Origin: a virus
Virus record (IMG/VR): IMGVR_UViG_3300018481_000048
Location: 1 to 34,900 of that record
Direction: 5' to 3' (one strand)
DNA: 34,900 bases
Below the pieces are notes generated by a model, which worked only from the letters and a program-made list of their open reading frames with translations, was not told where the DNA came from and ran no database searches. A program made the position numbers and the translations under genes. Shown here piece by piece: positions 6,759 to 30,984 of the stretch; position 1 is the first letter of the stretch, and each line of letters begins with the position of its first letter.

Positions 6759-8513
6759 ATGACTCTACCATCCTTAGCGAATCATGTAACCCCAAAATAT
6801 TATGAGGAATATCGAAGTCGAGTTCTAAACGGAGAAATTCCTGTCAATCGTGAAATCTCTATGGAGATGAATCGAATTGATGCTTTGATTAATAACCCTA
6901 ATGTTTATTATGATGAGGGTGCTGTTGAAGGATTTATAAAGTATTGTGAGAATGAGTTAACTCTTACTGACGGTACTGATCTTCATATGTTAGACATCTT
7001 TAAAGTTTGGGCAGAACAGATATTTGGTTGGTATCACTTTGAATCACGAAGCGTTTTTGTTCCAGGAAAAGATGGAGTTCCTGGACGATATGTTGAACGT
7101 ACTATACGGAAGCGTTTAACAACTAAACAATATTTGATCGTTGCCCGAGGTGCGGCAAAATCGATGTATGCTATGATGCTTCAAGCATATTTTTTGAATG
7201 TAGATACCGCCACAACTCATCAAATAACAACCGCGCCAACAATGAAACAAGCAGAAGAAGTAATGTCTCCGTTTCGAACGGCCATTACTCGTTCTCGAGG
7301 ACCACTGTTTAAGTTTTTAACACACGGGTCACTTCAAAATACAACGGGTTCCAGATTTGAACGACAAAAGCTTGCTTCAACAAAAAAGGGTGTTGAAAAT
7401 TTTTTAACGGGTTCTCTTCTTGAAGTTCGACCAATGTCAATTAATAAACTTCAGGGATTAAGACCTAAAGTTTCAACAATTGATGAATGGTTGTCCGGAG
7501 ACATTCGAGAAGACGTCGTCGGCGCGGTTGAACAGGGCGCTTCTAAGTTAGATGATTGGCTTATTGTAGCTATTAGTTCTGAGGGAACTGTTCGAAATGG
7601 TTCTGGTGATACAATCAAACTTGAATTGGCATCTATACTTCGAGGAGAGTATCAAGCTCCTCATATTTCTATCTGGCATTATAAGCTTGATGAGATTGAA
7701 GAAGTTGCTAATCCTGAGATGTGGGTTAAAGCCAATCCAAATTTGGGTTTAACAGTCACATATGAGACATATCATTTAGATGTCGAACGAGCCGAGAAAG
7801 CTCCCGCGGTAAGAAATGATATTCTTGCCAAACGGTTTGGCATTCCGATGGAGGGGTTTACTTATTATTTCACATATGAAGAAACCATTCCGCATAGAAA
7901 AGAAGATTTCTGGCAAATGCCCTGTGCGTTAGGTGCAGACCTTTCACAAGGCGATGACTTCACCGCGTTCACTTTTCTTTTTCCACTGAATGACGGTTCT
8001 TTTGGTGTAAAAACACGAAGTTACATAACTTCTCGTACTTTAATGCGTCTTCCTGGTGCAATGCGAGTTAAATATGAAGAGTTTCTATCCGAACAATCTC
8101 TACATGTACTTGATGGAAACATTTTAGACATGATGGAGGTTTATGATGACCTTGATGAGTTTATTCTTCGATCAGAATATGACGTTCGTTGCCTTGGATA
8201 TGACCCCTATAATGCCAAAGAGTTTATTACTCGATGGGAAGCTGAGAACGGGCCATTTGGTATCGAAAAAGTTATTCAGGGTTCTAGAACCGAATCTGTT
8301 CCTCTTGGAGAATTAAAGATTCTGAGCGGGGCACGTCTTCTTCGATTTGATCAGGGTCTAATGTCCTTCGCTATGGGAAATGCAATCACTATGGAGGATA
8401 CCAACGGAAACAGAAAACTGTTGAAGAAACGTAGTGAAGAGAAAATTGATAATGTCGCTGCATTGATGGATGCATGGGTAGCATATAAACTTAACAAAGA
8501 CGCTTTCGAGTAA
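6759..8513 (+). CDS. terL: Terminase large subunit
   Basis: The 584-residue ATPase-nuclease drives DNA into the prohead and cuts it. The Walker A-like segment is ARGAAKS (129-135), with Ala where many families have Asn-Gly or Gly-Gly. STIDEW (Asp242-Glu243) is Walker B with the catalytic Glu. The RNase H-like nuclease starts at CALGADLSQGDD (Asp394), and Asp571 in NVAALMDAW near the C-terminus is the expected last metal ligand. Length is typical. AAAGGGGG precedes the ATG at 6759. Its closest relatives would be HK97-type cos or similar terminases, but the packaging mode cannot be read from the sequence. Confidence 0.93.
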   Translation: MTLPSLANHVTPKYYEEYRSRVLNGEIPVNREISMEMNRIDALINNPNVYYDEGAVEGFIKYCENELTLTDGTDLHMLDIFKVWAEQIFGWYHFESRSVFVPGKDGVPGRYVERTIRKRLTTKQYLIVARGAAKSMYAMMLQAYFLNVDTATTHQITTAPTMKQAEEVMSPFRTAITRSRGPLFKFLTHGSLQNTTGSRFERQKLASTKKGVENFLTGSLLEVRPMSINKLQGLRPKVSTIDEWLSGDIREDVVGAVEQGASKLDDWLIVAISSEGTVRNGSGDTIKLELASILRGEYQAPHISIWHYKLDEIEEVANPEMWVKANPNLGLTVTYETYHLDVERAEKAPAVRNDILAKRFGIPMEGFTYYFTYEETIPHRKEDFWQMPCALGADLSQGDDFTAFTFLFPLNDGSFGVKTRSYITSRTLMRLPGAMRVKYEEFLSEQSLHVLDGNILDMMEVYDDLDEFILRSEYDVRCLGYDPYNAKEFITRWEAENGPFGIEKVIQGSRTESVPLGELKILSGARLLRFDQGLMSFAMGNAITMEDTNGNRKLLKKRSEEKIDNVAALMDAWVAYKLNKDAFE

Positions 8514-8992: not shown

Positions 8993-10306
8993 TTGCCAAA
9001 TTTGAAACGTACGGTCAAGCGCGTCAAGAATGCCTTCCGTTTCTATGATACAACTCGTGAGCAATATACTCAATCGATAGGAACAAGTTCATACTCAATG
9101 CTCGATGGTTATCGAGCTAAGTATGGAAACGAACGGACTATTGTTTCGTCGATTTATATGCGAATCGCAATCGATGTTGCTGGCATTCCGATGCGGCATG
9201 TAAAATTAGATGATCAAGGTCGATATCTTCATGATATTGATAGCCCGCTCAATGATTGCTTCACTCTCGAACCAAACATCGATCAAGGACCTCGGGCATT
9301 TCGTCAAAACATTGCAGGAAGTTTATTCGACGAAGGTTGTGTTGCTATTGTTCCAGTAAATACTACTATTGATGATATGACTGAAGAAGTTGTTAGTATT
9401 AACGATATGCGTTTAGGGACTATTCTTCAGTGGTATCCCCGGCACGTTAGAATTCGTCTTTATAACGAATCTATTGGGGATCATCAAGAAATTATTATTG
9501 AGAAACAAAAAGCCGCAATCGTTCAAAACCCCTTGTATGCTGTTATGAATGCTCCGAATTCAACTCTACAAAGACTTGTTCGTAAATTGAGCATGCTTGA
9601 TAGCGTTGATGAGGCAACAAGTTCTGGTAAATTAGACCTTATCATTCAGTTACCATACGTTATTAAGTCTGATGCTCGTCGTCGTCAAGCGGAAAGTCGT
9701 CGAGAGGATATTGAGTTTCAGCTTAAGCAAGGTAAGTATGGAATTGCATATACTGATGGAACTGAAAAGATTACTCAACTCAATCGTCCTGCTGAAAATA
9801 ATTTACTTAAACAAATTGAATACTTAACTGAATTATTATATTCTCAGTTGGGTATTACAAAATCGGTTATGGATGGAACTGCTGACGAAGCAACCATGAT
9901 TAATTATTACAACCGAACGGTTGAACCAATTTTAGATGCTATTCGGGAAGCTGAACATCGATCTTTTATTGGTAAAAAAGGAACTAATAATAAAGAGAAG
10001 ATTGAATATTTCAATCAACCATTTAAGTTAGTTCCAGTTTCAAATCTGGCCGAAGTTGCTGATAAATTTACTCGTAATGAAATTCTTACTAGTAATGAGT
10101 TTAGAGGAATTCTCGGTCTTCCGCCTCATCCTGATCCAAAAGCCGATCAATTAGTAAATAGTAATATGCCCCAGCCAGTTCAAAATGTAGATCAACCGTC
10201 AGGTCCTACTTTTGATGAAATTGATGGCATTATGAATGAAGTATTTGCTGGTTTAACATCCGACATCGAAGAACTGTCTAAGGGGGCAGGTGATGGAGGA
10301 GGCTAA
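8993..10306 (+). CDS. Portal protein
   Basis: The 437-residue protein, size and fold type of HK97-family portals, forms the dodecameric gate through which DNA enters and leaves the capsid. Features include an N-terminal basic stretch (KRTVKRVKNAF), the VSSIYMRIAIDVAGIPM helix, a central clip and stem region, YLTELLYSQLGITKSVMDGTADEATMIN (about 276-305) typical of portal stems, and TRNEILTSNEFRGILGLPPHPDP near the C-terminus. It begins at TTG (8993) behind an excellent GGAGGAGGTG site at 8976-8985. The end overlaps the following gene. Confidence 0.9.
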   Translation: MPNLKRTVKRVKNAFRFYDTTREQYTQSIGTSSYSMLDGYRAKYGNERTIVSSIYMRIAIDVAGIPMRHVKLDDQGRYLHDIDSPLNDCFTLEPNIDQGPRAFRQNIAGSLFDEGCVAIVPVNTTIDDMTEEVVSINDMRLGTILQWYPRHVRIRLYNESIGDHQEIIIEKQKAAIVQNPLYAVMNAPNSTLQRLVRKLSMLDSVDEATSSGKLDLIIQLPYVIKSDARRRQAESRREDIEFQLKQGKYGIAYTDGTEKITQLNRPAENNLLKQIEYLTELLYSQLGITKSVMDGTADEATMINYYNRTVEPILDAIREAEHRSFIGKKGTNNKEKIEYFNQPFKLVPVSNLAEVADKFTRNEILTSNEFRGILGLPPHPDPKADQLVNSNMPQPVQNVDQPSGPTFDEIDGIMNEVFAGLTSDIEELSKGAGDGGG

Positions 10307-11111: not shown

Positions 11112-13143
11112 CTTTAGTGGTTGGGCGACTAAGGCGAATGTTAAATGTTCAGATGGTCTGACCATCATGCCTCACGCCTTCCAACGCCAAAATAAGATGC
11201 GAGTTCCTTTGGTGTGGCAGCATGGACACGATGACCCAGAGAATGTTCTTGGGCATGCTATTCTTGAAGACCGTGCCGAAGGCGTTTATGCACATTGTTA
11301 TTTTAATGATTCTGCGAAGGCAGTGGTTGCAAAGGGCTTGGTTCAGCACCAGGATGTCAATTCCCTTTCGATTTGGGCTAATCAGCTGATTAAGCGGGCG
11401 GGAAGCGTTCTTCATGGAGCAATCCGTGAGGTCAGTCTTGTTCTTGCGGGCGCTAACCCTGGCGCGTTGATTGAGACTGTGGCTATTGCTCATTCTGACG
11501 GATTCGATGAGGATTTGGAAGATGAGTTGATTTTTAAGTTCAATGAAGTTGTTGAGCTTGTTCATTCGGATGACGCGACAGAGATTGTCACGGCTGATGA
11601 AACACAGGCAGAGGATGATGTTTCCCACGCGGTTGTCGTCTCTGATCCTAACCTGGGTGACCTCGTTGAAAATGAGGACATCTATAACTCTATGACTGCT
11701 GAGCAACAGGGTCTTTTAGAGTTTCTCGTTGGCGCTGCTATTGAGGCGACGTCGTCTGCTGCTCATTCGGATATGCAGGAAACTGAAGACAACGCCAATA
11801 TCGGCACTAAAGACACCCAGGATGCCATTACCGGCAAGGAAGGAAACGACACGATGTCCCACAGCAATGTGTTTGAGACCAAAGACGAGACGAAGGCTCC
11901 GTACCGACTCTCGCACACCGACATTGAGGCAATTCTCAATGATGCCAAGAACAGCCCGAATGGGTTGCTCAGTCATGCCGTCAATCGCTTCGCGGAGGAG
12001 CATCTCGAGCATGGCATCGAGGACATCGAGGTTCTGTTCCCGGACGCCAAGGCGATCGATGACGTTCCCGAGTTCCGCAAGCGTCGTACCGAATGGGTTG
12101 ACGTCGTTCTTACCGGCGTTCGAAAGAGCCCTTTCGCGAATATCAAGACCATCTGGGCTGACCTGACCTTTGACGAGGCTCGTGCTAAGGGTTATGTCAA
12201 GGGTAATATGAAGAAGGAAGAGTTCTTCAAAGTTGCCAAGCGTGTTACCTCCCCCACCACGATCTATAAGAAGCAGAAGCTTGATCGTGATGATATGCTG
12301 GATATCACTGATTTCAATGTGGTTCTCTGGCTCAAGGGTGAAATGCGCATCATGCTGGACGAGGAAATCGCTCGTAGTATTCTCATGGGCGATGGTCGTG
12401 CAGCAGACGATGAGGACAAGATCGACGAGGAGAAGCTTCGTCCGATTGCGACCGACTCGGTTGTCTATACGACGACGGTTAATGTCAATATCGATGACGC
12501 CAGCTCTTCGATGCAGGAAGTCATTGATAAGCTGATTTTGAATCGTCAGCACCTCCGCGGCACCGGCCTTCCGACGCTGTTTACGACGGAGACGTATATT
12601 TCCAGGCTCATGCTTCTTAAAGATACCACGGGTCGCGATCTCTATCGTTCTCTCGAGGAGATCTCTACGAAGCTTCGTGTCAGCCGTATTGTTCCGGTTG
12701 AGGCTCTTGAAGAGTATTCGGATATCGTTGCGATTCTTGTCAACCCGATCGACTATGTTGTCGGTGCAAACAAGGGCGGAGAGGTTACGACGTTCGAGGA
12801 CTTCGACATCGATTACAACCAGCATAAGTACCTGATCGAGACCCGGATTTCTGGTGCTCTCGTGAAGCTCAAGGCTGCGCTTGTTCTGAATCGAGTTGAG
12901 GGCGATGTTACCCTTGTCACGCCTAATGAGCCGACGTTCGTTTCGTCTACTGGTGTGGTTACCATTGTTGCTACTACGGGTATCGTTTACAAGGATGAGG
13001 ATGGTTCTACTCTGAGCGCCGGTGCTCAGGCTGCTCTGGACCCGGGTGAGAGCCTTGAGGTCTACGCTCATCCGTCAAGCTCCTCTTATGCCCTGGAAGA
13101 CAGTGAGCATGCTTACTGGAAGTTCACCCGGCCCGAGGCCTGA
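11101..13143 (+). CDS. Prohead protease fused to HK97-fold major capsid protein
   Basis: The 680-residue fusion has an S78-type protease at about 1-130: VPLVWQHGHD supplies His41, VNSLSIW and REVSLVLAGANPGA (Ser112) the rest. An acidic linker (about 135-250) leads to the capsid domain. This shows E-loop and P-domain features such as FRKRRTEWVDVVLTG and SRIVPVEAL, and ends in a small Ig-like module near residue 610 (TPNEPTFVSSTGVVTI). A second in-frame ATG at 11854 has AAGGAAGGA upstream (11836-11844), so a separate 429-residue capsid protein could also be made. Codon usage turns GC-rich close to that point. The ATG at 11101 overlaps the preceding gene. Confidence 0.88.
   Translation: MGPDFSGWATKANVKCSDGLTIMPHAFQRQNKMRVPLVWQHGHDDPENVLGHAILEDRAEGVYAHCYFNDSAKAVVAKGLVQHQDVNSLSIWANQLIKRAGSVLHGAIREVSLVLAGANPGALIETVAIAHSDGFDEDLEDELIFKFNEVVELVHSDDATEIVTADETQAEDDVSHAVVVSDPNLGDLVENEDIYNSMTAEQQGLLEFLVGAAIEATSSAAHSDMQETEDNANIGTKDTQDAITGKEGNDTMSHSNVFETKDETKAPYRLSHTDIEAILNDAKNSPNGLLSHAVNRFAEEHLEHGIEDIEVLFPDAKAIDDVPEFRKRRTEWVDVVLTGVRKSPFANIKTIWADLTFDEARAKGYVKGNMKKEEFFKVAKRVTSPTTIYKKQKLDRDDMLDITDFNVVLWLKGEMRIMLDEEIARSILMGDGRAADDEDKIDEEKLRPIATDSVVYTTTVNVNIDDASSSMQEVIDKLILNRQHLRGTGLPTLFTTETYISRLMLLKDTTGRDLYRSLEEISTKLRVSRIVPVEALEEYSDIVAILVNPIDYVVGANKGGEVTTFEDFDIDYNQHKYLIETRISGALVKLKAALVLNRVEGDVTLVTPNEPTFVSSTGVVTIVATTGIVYKDEDGSTLSAGAQAALDPGESLEVYAHPSSSSYALEDSEHAYWKFTRPEA
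11854..13143 (+). other. Possible internal start: stand-alone major capsid protein
   Basis: The ATG at 11854 is in frame with the fusion, corresponds to residue 252 and follows a purine-rich AAGGAAGGA eight to ten bases upstream. The product would begin MSHSNVFETKDETK and contain the whole capsid domain. Capsids need hundreds of coat copies per protease, so internal initiation would solve the stoichiometry. Cleavage of the fusion by its own protease is the alternative. Confidence 0.45.
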
Positions 13144-16876: not shown

Positions 16877-19800
16877 TAGTATAGAGAATAAGGTCGTCTC
16901 TCTGAAGTTCGATAATGACGACTTCATGAAGAAACTTGGGCCGACTCTTGCTGGAATTGATGCGCTTAAAAAAAGTCTTGATTTTAAAGATGCGGGAAAC
17001 AATCTTAATCAACTTAAAGCTGCGGGAAAAGATTTTAATCTTGGCGGAATTGGCGAAGCAGTTGATGATACGTCCAACAAGTTTAGTATTTTAGCCGGAG
17101 CAGCTTCTGTAGCTTTGGGAAGCATTGCCGCTACCGCGATTTCTACTGGAGCAGCGTTTGTAAAATCCTTTGCGTTTGGTCCTATTTTTCAAGGTTTTGC
17201 TGAATTCGAAACAAACGCTAATTCCATTCAAACCATCTTGGCTAATACGGCCGATAAAGGCACAACACTAGATGATGTTACTAAATCGCTTGATGTTTTG
17301 AATGGTTACGCTGACAAGACAATTTTCAACTTTGGTGAAATGACCAAAGGCGTTGGTCTCTTCACGGCAAATAACGTTGATCTTCAAACTTCTGTCGATG
17401 CCGTTAAGGGTATTTCGAATCTTATTGCTATGACCGGCGGAAATACAGAACAAGCTAAGGGCGCTTTTATTCAGTTGTCCCAAGCCATTTCTAGAGGTTC
17501 GGTTCAAGCCCAAGATTGGATGTCAGTAATGACGGCCGGTTTTGGTGGGCCTCTTCAGAAATTGTTGTTTGAATCTGCGAAAGCTTTAGGCACACTCCCT
17601 AATGTTCCACTTAATCAAACTTTTGATGAGTGGACAAAGAATGGGGGAGATTTTAAAGAGGCAATGGCAGAAGGCGTTTTTACTGCAGACGCTCTAAAAA
17701 TTAGTCTTCAAGCAATGAGTGGGGATCTGTCTGAGCAAACTCTTATGATGAAGGGGTTTTCTCAGCAACAAGCCGCATATATGCTTAATACAGCTAAACT
17801 TGGCGTTGGAGCAGCTACCGAGGTTAAAACTTTTACTCAGCTTATTAGTACTATGAAAGAAGCAGTTGGTACCGGCTGGGCAGAATCGTTTAAGATTGTT
17901 ATAGGTAATTTCGAGGAAGCAAAAGTTCTTTTAACTGGTGTATCTAATGCTTTTGGTGGAGTTATTTCAGAACTTAGCGGAAATAGAAATGCTGATCTTT
18001 CTTTCTGGAAAATTATGGGTGGTCGAGAAGGATTAATTCAGTCTGTTAGAAATGTACTTTGGAGTTTATTTGCCGTTGTATCAACGTTTAAGAATGCATT
18101 TCGAGACGTATTTCCGTATCGAGTTGGTGAAAATCTTGTTGCCATTACTAATGCTGTCCAGAAATTTACAGCAGCATTAGTTCCTTCTGGCGAAACGCTT
18201 GAGAAATTTAAACGTATATTTGTTGGAATATTCTCAATCTTTTCTATCGCTAAAACCGCCTTTAGTGTGGTGTTCAATATTATTGGAAATCTATTAAACC
18301 TCTTTGGTAAATTTTCTGGTCCGGGAACTGGTGGGTTCTTAGGCGTTCTTGCTTCACTTGCAGACGGAATAGCTAAGTTAGCTGTTTGGATGAAAACTGG
18401 TGGAGAGGCGATTAATAAGTTTGTTGATGAACATCTTGGCGGATTTGCAGATAAATTAAACGATATTGATTTTGCAAATTTCATTAATGATTTTAAACTT
18501 GGTCTAGATGTTATCTGGGAATTTATTAATCGTTTTATAGATTTTGCTGGAGTATTCCATACAATCCAAGACACCATTCAAAATTTCTGGAATTTCATCA
18601 ATTCTAAAATTGATTTTTCTGGACTATTTGAAGATGCTCTTAATAGTCTTGAAGTATTTAAAGATAAAGCGAGTGCATTCTTTAAAGGTCTTGGTGGAGA
18701 ATCTCCAGGAGACTTTATTGATGGATTCGTAAATGGAATCAAACAATTCTCAAAGGATGCATTCGAAAAAATCAAAGAATTTGGTTCTAAGATTTTAGAG
18801 ATTCTTAAGAACGTTCTTGGAATTCATTCTCCTTCTACGGAGATGTTTGATATCGGTAAAAACTTGATTCTTGGCCTTATTCAAGGAATTCGAGAAGGAA
18901 TTCCAAAGATATTTCAAGGAATGAAAGATCTTGGGATTGCCATTGTCAAGGGAATTGCAAATATCGATTTTAGTAAAGTTGGCGAGGGAATTAAATTTGG
19001 TTTGATTACTGGATTTATAACTTCGGTAATTCTTCTCGTTAGGAGAATTTCTGATGCTTTTGGTGGATTAAGAAAAGCGTTTGAAGGTCTTGCTGATCTT
19101 AAACTTCCATTTGCTGATAATCGTTCTGGATTTGAACACTTTGCTGATGCAGTCAAATCGATTGCAAAAGCTCTTGTAATTCTTGCTGTTGGTTTATTTA
19201 TATTTTCTAAGATTGATCCAGAAAGATTAGGTCCGGCTCTATCTTCCGTCGCCATTGGTCTTGGAGTACTTGGACTTGCTCTTGTGGGTCTTAATCAAGC
19301 AATTGGTGGTCAAGAGGATGCTAACAAAATTACTGTGATTGCAGCTGCGCTTCTTATTTTAGGTGGCGCGTTAATTGCTATGAGTGCTGCAATGAAAATT
19401 CTTTCAACAATTGATTCAGAAAGATTAGGAAATGGAATTCTAGCTATTTCTGGTCTTTTGGTTGCTGTAGGTATTTTTGTTAGATTATTACCGCAAGATA
19501 AAAAGAAACTTGGAGCCGATGGTTCTATAGAAGACGCCGCAACTAATTTCATAAAAATTGGTTTGGCATTAATCTTATTTGCTCATGGTTTGAAAACTAT
19601 GGCTAAGATTGTAAAAGTCTTCGGGGAGATGGACCCGGATAAAATGAAGCAGGGTTTATTTGGTCTAGCTGTGGCAATGGGTATTATTTTAGTTGCTATG
19701 AATGCTTTACCAAACGACATGGGTGAAAAGGCTAAGGGTCTTCTCATTATCGCTGGGGCTATTTGGATCTTGAGTAAGGCGATCGAGATTCTCGGTGGTC

Positions 19801-21641
19801 TTCCGTTCGAGACAGCTAAACAAGGACTTGCTTCGTTCGCACTTATCATTAGTCTTCTGGCTATTGCTCTGCTTGCGATTCCGCCAACGGTTGGTGAAGC
19901 AGCAGCGGCTGTTCTGGCTGTTGCCGGAGCCATGTTGGTGTTCCTCTATGTTGTGCAGAAGTTCGGTGAAATGGATTTCAACGTCCTCGTTCAAGGCATG
20001 ATTTCAATCGCCTTGATGCTTGGGGCACTTGTAATCGCGTCGAATCTTATGCGAGGTACGTCAGAAGCCGCGGCAGCAATTGTTTTGATTGCGTTAGCGC
20101 TTATTCCTTTGGCTCATGTTATAAAGATGTTATCAGAAATTGGATTCGGATCAGTAATTTTAGCCATCATTGGTTTAGCTTTAGCACTTGTTGTATTGGG
20201 TGCTGTGGCTTGGGCCGGAATTGCTACTGGGGCAACATTTGCACTTATGGCTTTGGCTGTAGCACTCATTCTCTTTGGTGAAGCCGCGCTTTTGTTTGGT
20301 GTCGGAGCCGTAGCAATGGGTTTCGGAATCGGTTTGCTCGTGGTTGCTTTATCTAAGTTTATAGATCTTGGAAGTAAAGCAGTTAAATTCTTTCGAGATG
20401 ATCTCCCAACGGTTATGATGGGAATCGGTAAAGGGTTTGCTGCGTTCATTCAAGGGTTTGTTGATCAGGTTCCAATGCTTCTTGTTAGTTTTCAGTTAGC
20501 CTTTTTAGAGGTTCTTAAAACTGCTGGAACTTTAATTCCTGCTTTTACAGGATTCATTGGAGATCTTATCATTGGAATTTTGTCTAAGATCGACGAAAAA
20601 CTTCCAGAAATTCAAGAAAAAGGGTTAAGTATTTTCAATAAACTTATTGATGGACTTAATCAAAACATCGACGCTATTACTGGTTCGGTTGTAAGTATTT
20701 TTGTTAAATTTTTGACGGCTATTAGCGAACGACTGGATATTATTACTCTTGCTGGTATCGTTTTCCTAGCAAGATTCATCAGTGGAATCGCTGATAACAT
20801 TCATCTTATGGAAGAGCCGGTTAATAAGCTTATCTCCGAGTTTGTTAAACTCATTGGCGGAGCTTGGCTTTCTCTTCTGATTGCAGGAATTGGATTTATT
20901 GCAGATTTTATCGACGGAGTACTTGGTGCCATTCCCGGATTTGTAAATAAAGTTGTCGGGGCGCTTATTGATTTGATGAATGGTGTTGCTGATGTCATTC
21001 GAGCGAATGATGAAGAATTCGGCAAGGCCATGGGCAATATTGCAGAAGCAATTCTGGAAGGACTTATTACTGGTCTTTGGAATGCTGAAGCAGAATTCTC
21101 CAAGAAATTAATTGATTTCGTTAAAACTGCCGTGGTTCAGCCATTCAAAGATGCACTTGGCATTAAATCTCCATCTAAGATTACTGCAGAAATGGGCGGC
21201 TATTTAGCGCAAGGTTTTGCTGTTGGTCTTAACGAAGATACAACTGCCGAGAAGGCCGCTGGAATTTTTGCCAATAATATCATCACTCAAATGAATTCAA
21301 GTCTTTCTCAGGTAGCTTCTATGGCAACTGAGATGGATGAATTTAACCCAACGATTACTCCGGTTCTAGATTTAGAAGAAGTTCAGAAGGGCGCCAATAA
21401 ACTTAGCGGTCTTCTTGCTTCTCCTACATTAGATACTTCTTTTACATCTGATCAAGCCGCGTCTCTTGCTGCGGTTCAAAAGGCCGTAGAAGAAGTCTCT
21501 CCAGATAGTCAACATGGGAGTCCATCTCAAGGACCGGTGTTCAATCAAACAATTCATGCGCCTACTCCGCTTGATGCGGAAGCAATTTATCGTAACACTA
21601 AATCTCAATTTGCATTTGCGCAGGAGGAACTTTCTGTATGA
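16869..21641 (+). CDS. Tape measure protein
   Basis: The 1590-residue protein sets siphophage tail length. The N-terminal region has FATGTTL-like tape motifs (FEFETNANSIQTILANT, TEQAKGAFIQLSQAISRGSVQAQD), typical of this family. A second block carries GIHSPSTEMFDIGKNLILGLIQG near residue 650 and GIKSPSKITAEMGGYLAQGF near 1430, the familiar SPS hinge repeats. From about 755 to 1140 there are degenerate 60-70-residue hydrophobic repeats (for example ILSTIDSERLGNGILAIS). By the usual rule of about 0.15 nm per residue the tail would be near 240 nm. Start is ATG 16869 overlapping the previous gene. Confidence 0.93.
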   Translation: MANSIENKVVSLKFDNDDFMKKLGPTLAGIDALKKSLDFKDAGNNLNQLKAAGKDFNLGGIGEAVDDTSNKFSILAGAASVALGSIAATAISTGAAFVKSFAFGPIFQGFAEFETNANSIQTILANTADKGTTLDDVTKSLDVLNGYADKTIFNFGEMTKGVGLFTANNVDLQTSVDAVKGISNLIAMTGGNTEQAKGAFIQLSQAISRGSVQAQDWMSVMTAGFGGPLQKLLFESAKALGTLPNVPLNQTFDEWTKNGGDFKEAMAEGVFTADALKISLQAMSGDLSEQTLMMKGFSQQQAAYMLNTAKLGVGAATEVKTFTQLISTMKEAVGTGWAESFKIVIGNFEEAKVLLTGVSNAFGGVISELSGNRNADLSFWKIMGGREGLIQSVRNVLWSLFAVVSTFKNAFRDVFPYRVGENLVAITNAVQKFTAALVPSGETLEKFKRIFVGIFSIFSIAKTAFSVVFNIIGNLLNLFGKFSGPGTGGFLGVLASLADGIAKLAVWMKTGGEAINKFVDEHLGGFADKLNDIDFANFINDFKLGLDVIWEFINRFIDFAGVFHTIQDTIQNFWNFINSKIDFSGLFEDALNSLEVFKDKASAFFKGLGGESPGDFIDGFVNGIKQFSKDAFEKIKEFGSKILEILKNVLGIHSPSTEMFDIGKNLILGLIQGIREGIPKIFQGMKDLGIAIVKGIANIDFSKVGEGIKFGLITGFITSVILLVRRISDAFGGLRKAFEGLADLKLPFADNRSGFEHFADAVKSIAKALVILAVGLFIFSKIDPERLGPALSSVAIGLGVLGLALVGLNQAIGGQEDANKITVIAAALLILGGALIAMSAAMKILSTIDSERLGNGILAISGLLVAVGIFVRLLPQDKKKLGADGSIEDAATNFIKIGLALILFAHGLKTMAKIVKVFGEMDPDKMKQGLFGLAVAMGIILVAMNALPNDMGEKAKGLLIIAGAIWILSKAIEILGGLPFETAKQGLASFALIISLLAIALLAIPPTVGEAAAAVLAVAGAMLVFLYVVQKFGEMDFNVLVQGMISIALMLGALVIASNLMRGTSEAAAAIVLIALALIPLAHVIKMLSEIGFGSVILAIIGLALALVVLGAVAWAGIATGATFALMALAVALILFGEAALLFGVGAVAMGFGIGLLVVALSKFIDLGSKAVKFFRDDLPTVMMGIGKGFAAFIQGFVDQVPMLLVSFQLAFLEVLKTAGTLIPAFTGFIGDLIIGILSKIDEKLPEIQEKGLSIFNKLIDGLNQNIDAITGSVVSIFVKFLTAISERLDIITLAGIVFLARFISGIADNIHLMEEPVNKLISEFVKLIGGAWLSLLIAGIGFIADFIDGVLGAIPGFVNKVVGALIDLMNGVADVIRANDEEFGKAMGNIAEAILEGLITGLWNAEAEFSKKLIDFVKTAVVQPFKDALGIKSPSKITAEMGGYLAQGFAVGLNEDTTAEKAAGIFANNIITQMNSSLSQVASMATEMDEFNPTITPVLDLEEVQKGANKLSGLLASPTLDTSFTSDQAASLAAVQKAVEEVSPDSQHGSPSQGPVFNQTIHAPTPLDAEAIYRNTKSQFAFAQEELSV
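21504..21531 (+). repeat. Directional repeat copy R4, inside the tape measure gene
   Basis: GATAGTCAACATGGGAGT differs from R1 at one base. The following bases extend the similarity to R5: over the 24 bases 21508-21531 only three positions differ from 25429-25452. Confidence 0.6.
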
Positions 21642-25556: not shown

Positions 25557-25568
25557 CTGTAAAACAAT

Positions 25569-25593
25569 TCGCAGAAATAACTACTCGTATAAT
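25569..25593 (+). promoter_or_regulatory. Phage promoter P2 (TCGCA-14-TATAAT)
   Basis: TCGCA at 25569-25573, 14 bases, TATAAT at 25588-25593, then AGAAACC. It precedes the 55-codon gene at 25627. Confidence 0.75.
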
Positions 25594-25836: not shown

Positions 25837-25842
25837 TCTTCC

Positions 25843-25867
25843 TCGCAGGTAAAACATCTACTATAAT
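25843..25867 (+). promoter_or_regulatory. Phage promoter P3 (TCGCA-14-TATAAT)
   Basis: TCGCA at 25843-25847, 14 bases, TATAAT at 25862-25867, followed by AGAAAC. The box and flanks are nearly the same as P2. It drives the gene at 25892. Confidence 0.78.
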
Positions 25868-26361: not shown

Positions 26362-26514
26362 ATGAATAACAGTCGAGTTAGTCAAGAATCAAAACGACTG
26401 ATTATTAAATGTCCAGTTTGTGGACAACGCGGATCAGTCAAAACTATGAAGCAAGCAAAATTCTGGAAACAGAACCACGAAATTATTTGCAAATTTGCTC
26501 GCAAGAAAAACTAG
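26362..26514 (+). CDS. 50-residue C2HC zinc-finger microprotein
   Basis: A frame too short for common gene finders: ATG 26362, two bases after the previous stop, ending TAG at 26512-26514. It contains CPVCG and later NHEIIC, giving Cys17, Cys20, His39, Cys43 (CX2C-X18-HX3C), the layout of a C2HC or C2H2-type zinc finger. The basic head and tail favour nucleic-acid binding, perhaps a regulator. Promoter P4 lies across its last codons. Confidence 0.55.
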   Translation: MNNSRVSQESKRLIIKCPVCGQRGSVKTMKQAKFWKQNHEIICKFARKKN

Positions 26515-26523
26515 CGCTATAGT
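26499..26523 (+). promoter_or_regulatory. Phage promoter P4 (TCGCA-14-TATAGT)
   Basis: TCGCA at 26499-26503, 14 bases, TATAGT at 26518-26523, then GAGAAG. It overlaps the end of the zinc-finger gene and points into the structured RNA. Confidence 0.7.
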
Positions 26524-26638
26524 GAGAAGAAGGCAAGACACGAATGTGTAGGTGAAATACCTACCTGCCTGGCGCGACAAGAAAGTCGCTAAGTATAGTT
26601 TTCGTTGGACTATACGCCCCAGCTTCTCATTTTTATTT
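26524..26638 (+). ncRNA. Structured RNA, four-stem fold with U-run end
   Basis: Pairs are visible: P1 GAGAAG (26524-26529)/CTTCTC (26623-26628); P2 AGGCA (26531-26535)/TGCCT (26566-26570) holding hairpin GTAGGT/ACCTAC (26548-26553/26559-26564); P3 GGC (26571-26573)/GCC (26616-26618) holding GCGAC/GTCGC and GTATAGT/ACTATAC. All nest without conflict. ATTTTTATTT follows directly, so it can be a terminator or attenuator. The gene at 26656 follows. The first bases of P1 lie right after the TATAGT box, so a P4 transcript might start inside P1, and P1 may only form on read-through RNA. Not a tRNA: no T-arm. Confidence 0.6.
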
Positions 26639-26655
26639 CCAACTTAGGAGTTATA

Positions 26656-26787
26656 ATGCTAAAAGGATGCAAACGCCTGATATGGATATTTATTCTTACG
26701 CTTCTGCTATGGTTCTGTTTTGGAATGTTGTTCCGTTTTGGAATGTGGATAGTTATTTCAATCTTGGAGGCCATAAGTGTTAGGTGA
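26656..26787 (+). CDS. 43-residue hydrophobic membrane microprotein
   Basis: ATG 26656 has AGGAG (26646-26650), and I prefer it to the upstream TTG frame that would run through the structured RNA. The product is almost all membrane helix (LIWIFILTLLLWFCFGMLFRFGMWIVISILEAI), probably one or two spans. It overlaps the next small gene by 11 bases. Confidence 0.55.
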   Translation: MLKGCKRLIWIFILTLLLWFCFGMLFRFGMWIVISILEAISVR

Positions 26788-26929
26788 AGCAGCCAAAGAA
26801 CTTCTGGATGTTATTGCATATCTTGGTGGAATCATGTCTTTTATATTTCTGATTCTTTATGTCTGGGCCAATTGGTCTGATTGGATGTCAGACGATGAGG
26901 ATGAAGAAGAGGAAGAGGATTATCGATGA
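26777..26929 (+). CDS. 50-residue membrane protein with acidic tail
   Basis: GTG 26777 has GGAGG (26766-26770) inside the preceding gene. After an N-terminal amphipathic segment there is a hydrophobic helix (about 13-32, VIAYLGGIMSFIFLILYVWA) and a highly acidic end (DDEDEEEEEDYR). The stop TGA overlaps the ATG of the next gene (ATGA). Tight overlap with both neighbours implies co-translation. Absent from simple gene calls because of its size. Confidence 0.6.
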   Translation: MLGEAAKELLDVIAYLGGIMSFIFLILYVWANWSDWMSDDEDEEEEEDYR

Positions 26930-27657
26930 TGAATATTGAAGGGTTATATTACGGAGTAAAGACTGCGTTTAAGCATAATGCTCCTGCAATTCTTACAGGT
27001 CTTGGCGTAAGTGGAACTATTACCACCGCGGTACTTACGGCCAGGGCGACGTGGAAGGCTTCTAACCGCTTGAGTGAAGGCCCGCCGATCGAACAACTCT
27101 CAAAGAAGGAGATCATCCGTGAATGCTGGGATCTCTATATTCCTGCGACCATCGCGGGAACAGTTACTGTCGGTTGCATCCTCGGAGCAAATCACGTCAG
27201 CACAAAAAGAGCGGCTGCTATGGCATCTCTACTGGCAGTTTCTGAACGAACGATAACTGATTATCGAGAGAAGGTTATTGAGCAAATCGGAGAAAAGAAA
27301 GAAAAAAATCTTCGCGATGAAATTGTTCAGGAACGAATTCAGAAAACGCCAGTGTCTGAAGTTGTAGTTGTTGGTGAGGGAGTCGTTCTATATATGGAAG
27401 GGTTTACCGGTAGGCATTTCGCCTGCAACAACTCTGTCCTAGATTCTGCGGTCAATAAGATCAATCACAAAGCACAACGCGAAGGTTATGCAACGCTAGG
27501 TGACTTTTACTTTGAAGTAGGCTTGCCTCAAACCAGTAATTCTGGGCAAGTTGGTTGGCATTCTGATAATCTACTTGAACTTCGTCGCGTTGCTGAAATC
27601 TCTCCTGATGGTCGACCCTGTATCTCAATTGATTATAATTACGTGGATCCCCTTTAG
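26926..27657 (+). CDS. DUF6353-type phage membrane protein, copy A
   Basis: The 243-residue product has two hydrophobic segments (about 20-38 and 70-88) and a charged C-terminal domain with LGDFYFEVGLPQTSNSGQVGWHSDN. The pattern NAPAILTGLGVSGTITTAVLTARATWKA ... ILGANHVSTKRAAAMASLLAVSER is, to my recollection, that of DUF6353 proteins from phages. The gene at 30118 shares the pattern (RNAPTIMFAGGVMGVVASTVMACRATLK ... LTGSHVTLNRRNAGLTAAYAAVSK), so the two are paralogs. Function is unknown. ATG 26926 or 26929; promoter P5 lies just after its end. Confidence 0.75.
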   Translation: MMNIEGLYYGVKTAFKHNAPAILTGLGVSGTITTAVLTARATWKASNRLSEGPPIEQLSKKEIIRECWDLYIPATIAGTVTVGCILGANHVSTKRAAAMASLLAVSERTITDYREKVIEQIGEKKEKNLRDEIVQERIQKTPVSEVVVVGEGVVLYMEGFTGRHFACNNSVLDSAVNKINHKAQREGYATLGDFYFEVGLPQTSNSGQVGWHSDNLLELRRVAEISPDGRPCISIDYNYVDPL

Positions 27658-27660
27658 ACC

Positions 27661-27685
27661 TCGCAGAAAAAACACGGTCTATAGT
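27661..27685 (+). promoter_or_regulatory. Phage promoter P5 (TCGCA-14-TATAGT)
   Basis: TCGCA at 27661-27665, 14 bases, TATAGT at 27680-27685, then AGGAAGA. It drives the small gene at 27718. Confidence 0.72.
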
Positions 27686-28579: not shown

Positions 28580-29092
28580 ATGCTTAAGAAGGAAATGACT
28601 TACGAGGATTACGATGGTAAGAGCGTTACTGAAACGCTTTATTTCCATCTCTCTAAGCCAGAATTGATTGAACTCGAGCTGTCATATCCTGAAGGAATTG
28701 AGGCGGCACTTAAGAAGATGGTAGAAGAAGAGAATCGATCTTCCATTCTTGCTTTCTTTAAAAAGATTGTTTTACTTGCTTATGGTGTTCGAGCAGAAGA
28801 GGGTAAGCGGTTCATCAAGAGCGAAGAGGTCTCTCTCGCATTCTCTCAGACTAATGCCTATAATGAGCTTTATATGCTTTTCTTTACTGATAGCGACGAA
28901 GCAATTAAGTTCCTCAAGGGAATTCTTCCTAATGATCTTTCAGAGCAAGTTAATGAGGAAGATCTTAAGCAGCGAATGATTGCTGTCGGAAAGAGCTCTG
29001 TCGCAGAGGAAGTTATTGATCCTACGACTCTTACTACGGCAGAAATTGCTGAACGTAATCGTAAAGCTGAGGAAGCTGCGGCGCAGGATTAA
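28580..29092 (+). CDS. Conserved phage protein with chaperone-like family pattern
   Basis: The 170-residue product has MTYEDYDGKSVTETLYFHLSKPELIELEL, then LAFFKKIVLLAYGVRAEEGKRFIKSEEV and FSQTNAYNELYMLFFTDSDEAIKFLKGILP. I recognise this as a family common in siphophages, sometimes annotated as tail chaperone-like, but the role is not certain. It is outside the tail operon here. The start ATG lies three bases after the kinase stop, with GTGAGG upstream. Confidence 0.65.
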   Translation: MLKKEMTYEDYDGKSVTETLYFHLSKPELIELELSYPEGIEAALKKMVEEENRSSILAFFKKIVLLAYGVRAEEGKRFIKSEEVSLAFSQTNAYNELYMLFFTDSDEAIKFLKGILPNDLSEQVNEEDLKQRMIAVGKSSVAEEVIDPTTLTTAEIAERNRKAEEAAAQD

Positions 29093-30117: not shown

Positions 30118-30984
30118 ATGAAACTTATTCCTATTAGTGTCAGTCGAAGCATTGGATCTTCGGAACTCTTTCTTCGCCGTAATGCCCCCACGATCATGTT
30201 CGCTGGCGGGGTTATGGGCGTTGTAGCCAGCACAGTTATGGCTTGTCGTGCGACACTTAAGCTGTCCGATGAGCTTCCTAAGATGAAGCATAACCTGGAG
30301 CAGGCTCGAGAAGATCTTGAGGATGGCGAGGAAAACACAGCTCGTTCTCTTACTCTTGTGTATGTTGATAACGCAGTAAAGGTTGCCAAACTTTATGCTC
30401 CAACCGTTGCGGTTGGTTCGTTGGCTATTGGTGCTTTGACTGGTTCTCATGTTACTTTGAATCGTCGTAATGCCGGACTCACTGCTGCTTATGCTGCCGT
30501 GTCCAAGGCATATGATGAGTATCGCGCTCGAGTTCGTGATGAACTCGGTGATGAAAAGGAACGAGATATTTATCAAGGCGCGGTTGTTGAGAAGGTTGTT
30601 GGAGAAGACGGTAAAAAGACCAAGGTTACTACTATCGATCCCAGTGGAACTTCTCCTTATTCTCGTCTCTATGATGAGTCATCCTATAACTTCCAGAAAG
30701 ACGCTCAATACAATCTGTGCTTTATCAAGGCTCAGCAGGATTATGCCAACGACCTTCTTCATCGTCGCGGGTTTGTTTTCCTTAACGAGGTCTTAAAGGA
30801 ACTTGGTTTGGATATGGGTAATGTCGGCGCTCAGGTCGGTTGGGTTGTTGATGGTGATGGAGATGGTTATATCGATTACGGTCTTGATCGATATCTGACT
30901 GATCCCACTATTGATCCCAAGGAACCGCGCATCTGGCTTGACTTCAACGTTGATGGTACCATCATCGGGAAAATCAAGGAGTAA
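30118..30984 (+). CDS. DUF6353-type phage membrane protein, copy B
   Basis: The 288-residue paralog of the protein at 26926 has hydrophobic segments at about 23-42 and 92-110. Then comes a long charged segment and a C-terminal domain with VFLNEVLKELGLDMGNVGAQVGWVVDGDGDGYIDYGLD, whose GDGDGYID resembles a calcium-binding loop. TAGGAGG precedes the ATG. Codons are more GC-rich than in copy A. Function unknown; membrane-linked by prediction. Confidence 0.75.
   Translation: MKLIPISVSRSIGSSELFLRRNAPTIMFAGGVMGVVASTVMACRATLKLSDELPKMKHNLEQAREDLEDGEENTARSLTLVYVDNAVKVAKLYAPTVAVGSLAIGALTGSHVTLNRRNAGLTAAYAAVSKAYDEYRARVRDELGDEKERDIYQGAVVEKVVGEDGKKTKVTTIDPSGTSPYSRLYDESSYNFQKDAQYNLCFIKAQQDYANDLLHRRGFVFLNEVLKELGLDMGNVGAQVGWVVDGDGDGYIDYGLDRYLTDPTIDPKEPRIWLDFNVDGTIIGKIKE

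Follow-up and report, generated by a model that had tools for sequence, protein, structure and literature searches.

A conserved, folded non-coding RNA of about 110 bases in viruses infecting soil actinobacteria

Between the small genes of a virus, a stretch of DNA with several nested stems and a terminal run of T raises the question of whether a folded RNA is encoded there and, if so, whether it works as a free molecule or as a control element of the gene that follows. The stretch in question occupies positions 26522-26634 of the window, which is the whole virus record of 34,900 bases that was analysed, and it lies in an intergenic gap within a small-gene region flanked by tail genes and the DNA polymerase. 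The capsid and DUF6353 genes of the window match about 240 phage records, mainly of actinobacteriophages (Arthrobacter, Gordonia, Streptomyces, Curtobacterium and others). The small-gene region also contains, distant from the tail genes, a PF23803 tail assembly chaperone domain (28580-29092). By eye, a second DUF6353-like protein was noted at 30118-30984, the other copy being 26926-27657, and two are also found in most relatives. An alignment of DUF6353 was tried as a search route, and its conservation proved too low.

Six nested helices had been proposed at this site in the original prediction, and all six were found in place (P1 to P6; Table 1), followed by five T residues at 26630-26634. 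P1, which pairs GTGAGAAG with CTTCTCAT (26522-26529/26623-26630), exceeds the stem first described by two pairs; a further hairpin, P2a (26538-26547), had been overlooked, as had the pairing of its loop with that of P6. The minimum free energy of 26522-26634 is -38.5 kcal/mol, as against -24.3 +/- 3.4 for shuffled sequences (z -4.16), and none of 200 shuffles folded as well.

Table 1. Elements of the RNA locus and its surroundings, with positions in the window.
Feature	Position	Strand	Observation
Predicted phage-type promoter, CTCGCA-N14-TATA	26498..26521	+	exact YTCGCA-N14-TATART match; predicted +1 at G26522
P1 5' strand, GUGAGAAG	26522..26529	+	pairs with 26623-26630; compensatory changes at 8/8 pairs in 28 homologues
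P2 5' strand, AGGCA	26531..26535	+	pairs with 26566-26570; compensatory change at 5/5 pairs; 99.3% of cells paired
P2a hairpin, ACA-CGAA-UGU	26538..26547	+	loop 26541-26544 covaries with 26601-26604
P3, GTAGGT/ACCTAC, T-arm-like (5-bp stem, 7-nt loop UGAAAUA)	26548..26564	+	alignment of homologues
P2 3' strand, UGCCU	26566..26570	+	partner of 26531-26535
P4 5' strand, GGC	26571..26573	+	pairs with 26616-26618; third pair exchanges C-G to U-A
P5 hairpin, GCGAC/GUCGC, loop variable	26574..26589	+	compensatory change at 4/4 modelled pairs
P6 hairpin, GUAUAGU/ACUAUAC, loop UUUCGUUGG	26593..26615	+	compensatory change at 7/8 pairs; 97.3% of cells paired
P4 3' strand, GCC	26616..26618	+	partner of 26571-26573
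P1 3' strand, CUUCUCAU, with U-run; closing stem and predicted intrinsic terminator	26623..26634	+	sequence, covariation and folding
Next gene, 43-aa membrane-like ORF	26656..26787	+	no conserved partner of the RNA (27 loci compared)

Distant BLAST searches found the core of the RNA in Gordonia phages, inside unannotated gaps, and patterns built from these matches gave further copies in viral contigs. A covariance model (R1) made from six sequences gave 28 matches among the loci searched, scoring from 129 down to 25 bits. In the alignment of these 28 homologues, which was fitted to the structure and drew on search patterns in which the P2a loop and some of P3 were fixed, 94.5% of the pair cells hold standard pairs versus 36-43% when the partners are slid. 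Compensatory changes, which the original prediction had set as its own check, are present at 32 of the 41 pairs across these actinobacteriophage sequences, and the observed values were reached by 0 of 500 shuffles. Later patterns left P1, P4, P5 and P6 free, and P2 was fixed in the first scan only. In P3 the covariation consists of changes in two sequences only (L054 and Qui), because this stem is almost invariant. The reading of the locus as a chance fold beside a terminator, with no functional RNA, is refuted in practice by the covariation; the folding statistics and the conservation of the RNA in many phages also speak against it, and we give it practically no credence. The RNA of about 110 bases is non-coding, folded and conserved in viruses infecting soil actinobacteria.

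At locus L028 a second RNA (11159-11265) is situated in tandem just upstream of the homologue; its 5' domain is similar and its 3' domain different (14-20 bits).

The P2a loop CGAA (26541-26544) is complementary to UUCG in the P6 loop (26601-26604), and the two generalize across homologues to CKAA and UUMG. At the variable K-M pair, 14 of the 28 sequences have U-A, 12 have G-C and 2 have a G-A mismatch, and on a tree built without the loop columns either partner of the loop-loop pair has switched about seven times, in most cases jointly with the other. The patterns fixed just one of the two loops, and sought both K letters, so the match seen in the other loop is no product of how the sequences were selected. 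As such, the covariation of the two loops makes a P2a-P6 loop-loop pseudoknot very likely. Shorter RNAs at the same place in two Arthrobacter phages retain the CGAA/UUCG complementarity, namely in ElephantMan (16.8 bits, E 0.02 for its genome) and, by eye, in Shiba.

The original prediction had matched this RNA to no known tRNA or riboswitch, and the Rfam 15 search gave nothing at the gathering score in the window and nothing up to E=10 in 26450-26700. ARAGORN called neither a tRNA nor a tmRNA at the locus. Identity with a tRNA was rejected for want of an ARAGORN call or an Rfam tRNA match, and identity with a tmRNA (tRNA-like ends plus a tag reading frame) was rejected on the negative ARAGORN result. 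P3 nevertheless has the form of a T-arm in most homologues, with a 5-bp stem and a 7-nt loop whose first base is U and whose fifth is A (exceptions: L057, L060 and Qui), and in L049 and L062 it is the literal T-arm sequence GGUUCGAAUCC with the loop UUCGAAU. This T-arm-like P3 and the tRNA-like neighbours in the same island are points of likeness to tRNA and tRNA-like RNAs (RF00005), but the acceptor/D/anticodon layout and the CCA are absent from the RNA described here. No published account of an RNA at 26522-26634 was found in the literature searched. Judged from the sequences at hand, the RNA is an uncatalogued, well-supported family with a probable tertiary contact.

Directly upstream of the RNA is a copy of the motif YTCGCA-N14-TATART, which has four exact matches in the window where 0.03 would be expected (25568-25593, 25842-25867, 26498-26523 and 27660-27685), all of them in the small-gene region. 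Relatives carry it as well, ahead of dozens of their genes and RNAs. With this excess of copies, the promoter that had been proposed at the 5' end of the RNA is real at the level of a motif. It is evidently the same motif as a 43-50 bp intergenic repeat of cluster DJ Gordonia phages, which has been interpreted as sigma-70 in the portions of the two papers available to us; those portions, unlike the present analysis, report no RNA at the motif (PMC9671010, PMC10868162).

The doubt attached to the 5' end in the original prediction was apt. The P1 5' strand begins at the base directly following TATA, and since P1 covaries at 8/8 pairs this strand should belong to the RNA, which suggests that transcription starts directly after TATA, at about 26522, and not at sigma-70 spacing. 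A sigma-70 start would be placed 6-7 bases further downstream and would delete most of the P1 5' strand. Host sigma-70 transcription, an alternative that concerns the 5' end only and is mostly compatible with our main reading, would take TATAGT as the -10 box and GAGAAG as promoter DNA, with a start near 26530. The TATAAT-like box and the cluster DJ annotation of the motif favour it (PMC10868162, PMC9671010). However, the covarying P1 pairs include the promoter-adjacent cases L029 and L056, and the phage Fazel keeps P1 though no promoter adjoins its copy. Furthermore, the YTCGCA box stands 14 bp from TATA rather than about 17 bp, and the conservation of a fixed 26-bp motif is unusual for sigma-70. 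We regard a sigma-70 start as unlikely.

A phage enzyme is a candidate for using these promoters. The protein family phrog_4291 (about 900 aa, labelled RNA-dependent RNA polymerase) occurs in 21 of 23 records of the phage group, its gene lying outside the window, and its GADFDGD motif is invariant. In most of these genomes the gene is near the right end (L042 15772-18474, L044 17317-19902, L069-L076). DFDGD is the signature that was used to find the cellular-type polymerase of P23-45, a phage with polymerases that use promoters of their own (PMC10770324), and in SPbeta the late genes are transcribed by YonO, a comparable polymerase (PMC5467207). No significant similarity between phrog_4291 and YonO was detected by hhalign. 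The DFDGD motif and the PHROG label are the two grounds for regarding phrog_4291 as a putative polymerase, and it could use the YTCGCA promoters. A T7-type polymerase was rejected as the transcriber, Pfam RNA_pol being absent from 10 phage records in a search run without a positive control.

The SPbeta late operon transcribed by YonO begins with an ncRNA, and the YonO start lies upstream of that ncRNA (PMC5467207). In having a phage ncRNA made from the promoter of a phage-encoded RNA polymerase of non-T7 type, SPbeta resembles what is proposed for the RNA here, but it gave no match to the covariance models R1 or R2. In the SPbeta record (L068) about 1.7 kb without annotated genes, also without a model match, extend from 19153 to 20834 between yonK and yonN, upstream of yonK, and it is upstream of yonK that the YonO late promoter and the ncRNA were reported (PMC5467207).

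Two roles had been offered for the RNA in the original prediction, of which the free regulatory RNA has held up, with strong covariation, promoter and terminator motifs of its own and no Rfam or tRNA match, while a cis attenuator for 26656-27657 has found no support as a general role, in view of the varied downstream genes and new promoters. An attenuator or riboswitch would place the RNA as a leader of 26656-27657, where folding of P1, perhaps aided by a ligand or protein, would terminate transcription and misfolding would let it continue. The closing stem and U-run have the make-up of a terminator, and the U-run adjoins the closing stem in nearly all homologues. In the window the 43-aa ORF starts 22 bases past the U-run with no promoter between, and a similar layout is seen ahead of a related membrane protein of about 40 aa in L026, L030, L032, L046, L057 and L062. 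Against this, the ORFs downstream of the RNA at 27 homologous loci belong to several unrelated families, and a new promoter stands between the RNA and the next ORF, in Gordonia phages among others, at seven loci by pattern (L001, L006, L008, L009, L054, L056 and L060) and at two more by eye (L002 and L005), or about a third of loci in all. L056 even carries the same gene of about 40 aa behind a promoter of the gene's own, the RNA of Fazel follows a tRNA-like RNA within one unit, and no alternative anti-P1 pairing was noticed. A conserved downstream gene with no promoter between, as expected of a cis element, was not found across the loci, whereas the promoter and terminator motifs and conserved structure of a stand-alone small RNA were. 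Since the downstream genes vary, often with a promoter of their own, the loci taken together are better explained by a stand-alone RNA than by an attenuator, and the former is the best reading of these sequences; the attenuator appears rather improbable. The next ORF does follow 20-45 bases past the terminator, with no intervening promoter, both in the window and in several relatives. Some read-through is thus possible in the window, and a read-through or leader role is possible there and in several relatives. The related membrane-like protein of about 40 aa, with a conserved WLIW...RE motif, is the first ORF after the RNA in L026, L030, L032, L046, L056, L057 and L062.

The distribution of the RNA bears on whether a stand-alone molecule would serve a core or an accessory function. 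Its carriers fall in one phage group (DUF6353 in 18/20), and none of the bacterial genomes searched with the core pattern gave a match. Several fully sequenced relatives, searched over their whole genomes, are without the RNA. Within Kenoshavirus, Schwartz33 has the RNA, whereas Kenosha and Duffington are without it and have a tRNA-like RNA at that place instead; Fazel carries both, the tRNA-like RNA first. Gain and loss of this kind in a phage genus speak for an accessory function and against a core one such as packaging. A core RNA machine would be exemplified by the DNA packaging RNA (pRNA) of phage phi29, which has about 110-120 nt, paired ends and two hairpin loops with covarying 4-nt complementarity, the loops pairing between molecules. 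The RNA here is similar in size, its ends are paired, its complementary 4-nt loops covary, and this covariation fits intramolecular and intermolecular pairing alike. However, it is missing from the complete genomes of same-genus relatives (Kenosha, Duffington and others), the phage group has an ordinary large terminase gene, and there is no match to the known pRNA family in Rfam. A packaging role is very improbable; of a core and an accessory role, the accessory one, exerted in trans, is the likelier.

Built alike, with this promoter and a closing stem, many further candidates for small RNAs are found in the same island. In the tRNA-like RNAs of L016 (4725-4805), L024 (4430-4511) and L005 (443-509) a GNRA-type tetraloop hairpin replaces the anticodon arm and there is no CCA; two of the three are closed by a promoter-proximal GAGA/UCUC stem. 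The one in L005, which is that of Fazel, scores 42.8 bits against Rfam tRNA and has no ARAGORN call. A small RNA candidate at L018 5297-5459 has three near-identical hairpins (GTGAAAAAGATCGCWCTGACGATCACAC), and another on the minus strand of L049 (reverse complement offset 1864-1949) has an internal repeat (CGGAGNCGTGACACTACGNCACC), each with the same promoter upstream. On the minus strand of L007 two 57-nt promoter and closing-stem candidates (reverse complement offsets 9303-9359 and 9390-9446) lie about 1.1 kb upstream of the homologue. The ElephantMan record (L044) contains a homologue of Tad3, a type I Thoeris inhibitor, at 7542-8279. Phage T4 makes two stable stand-alone RNAs of about 100 nt, C and D (species 1 and 2), which are located near tRNA genes and have no function assigned to them. 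Compared by description, they and the RNA here are alike as stand-alone phage RNAs of about 100 nt, and the host group differs; RNAs C and D are not known to belong to an array in which promoter and closing-stem design are shared.

The conserved fold, the loop-loop contact, and the promoter and terminator as motifs are supported by the comparison of homologues. Building on these, we consider it reasonably probable that 26522-26634 is a stand-alone structured RNA gene of about 110 nt, started by a phage polymerase, pseudoknotted, and with an accessory role in trans, in host takeover or counter-defence. Transcription would probably be initiated at 26522, directly past the TATA of the phage-type promoter, by the RNA polymerase that the phage itself encodes. 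The 5' and 3' ends of the RNA would then pair as P1, and, to judge from this anatomy, P1 and the U-run would terminate transcription. The molecule would form two arms, P2/P2a/P3 (with the T-arm-like P3) and P4/P5/P6, and both arms would be locked together where the CKAA loop of P2a pairs with the UUMG loop of P6, a contact to which the covariation points. What we infer is that the RNA is transcribed by the phage enzyme, is released as a free molecule and acts in trans; most likely it would be bound, as a folded ligand or decoy, by a protein of the host or the phage or by the tRNA/ribosome machinery, and so contribute to host takeover or counter-defence in an accessory capacity. For the target our guess, prompted by the T-arm likeness and the tRNA-like neighbours, is either RNA-directed defence or the machinery that handles tRNA. 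More speculatively, and with considerable doubt, the RNA may found a class of phage effector RNAs that are compact, pseudoknotted and T-arm-bearing, made by the phage's cellular-type polymerase from a swap-in/swap-out island shared with anticodon-less tRNA mimics, and that jointly hit the host tRNA or RNA-directed defence machinery.

This new RNA family sits in phages culturable on Gordonia and Arthrobacter, and the annotated 'gaps' of these genomes appear to house an array of genes for small RNAs. The predicted start at TATA+1 would give a handle on the promoter choice of DFDGD-motif phage polymerases, and the RNA itself may give one on what structured phage RNAs do to the host.
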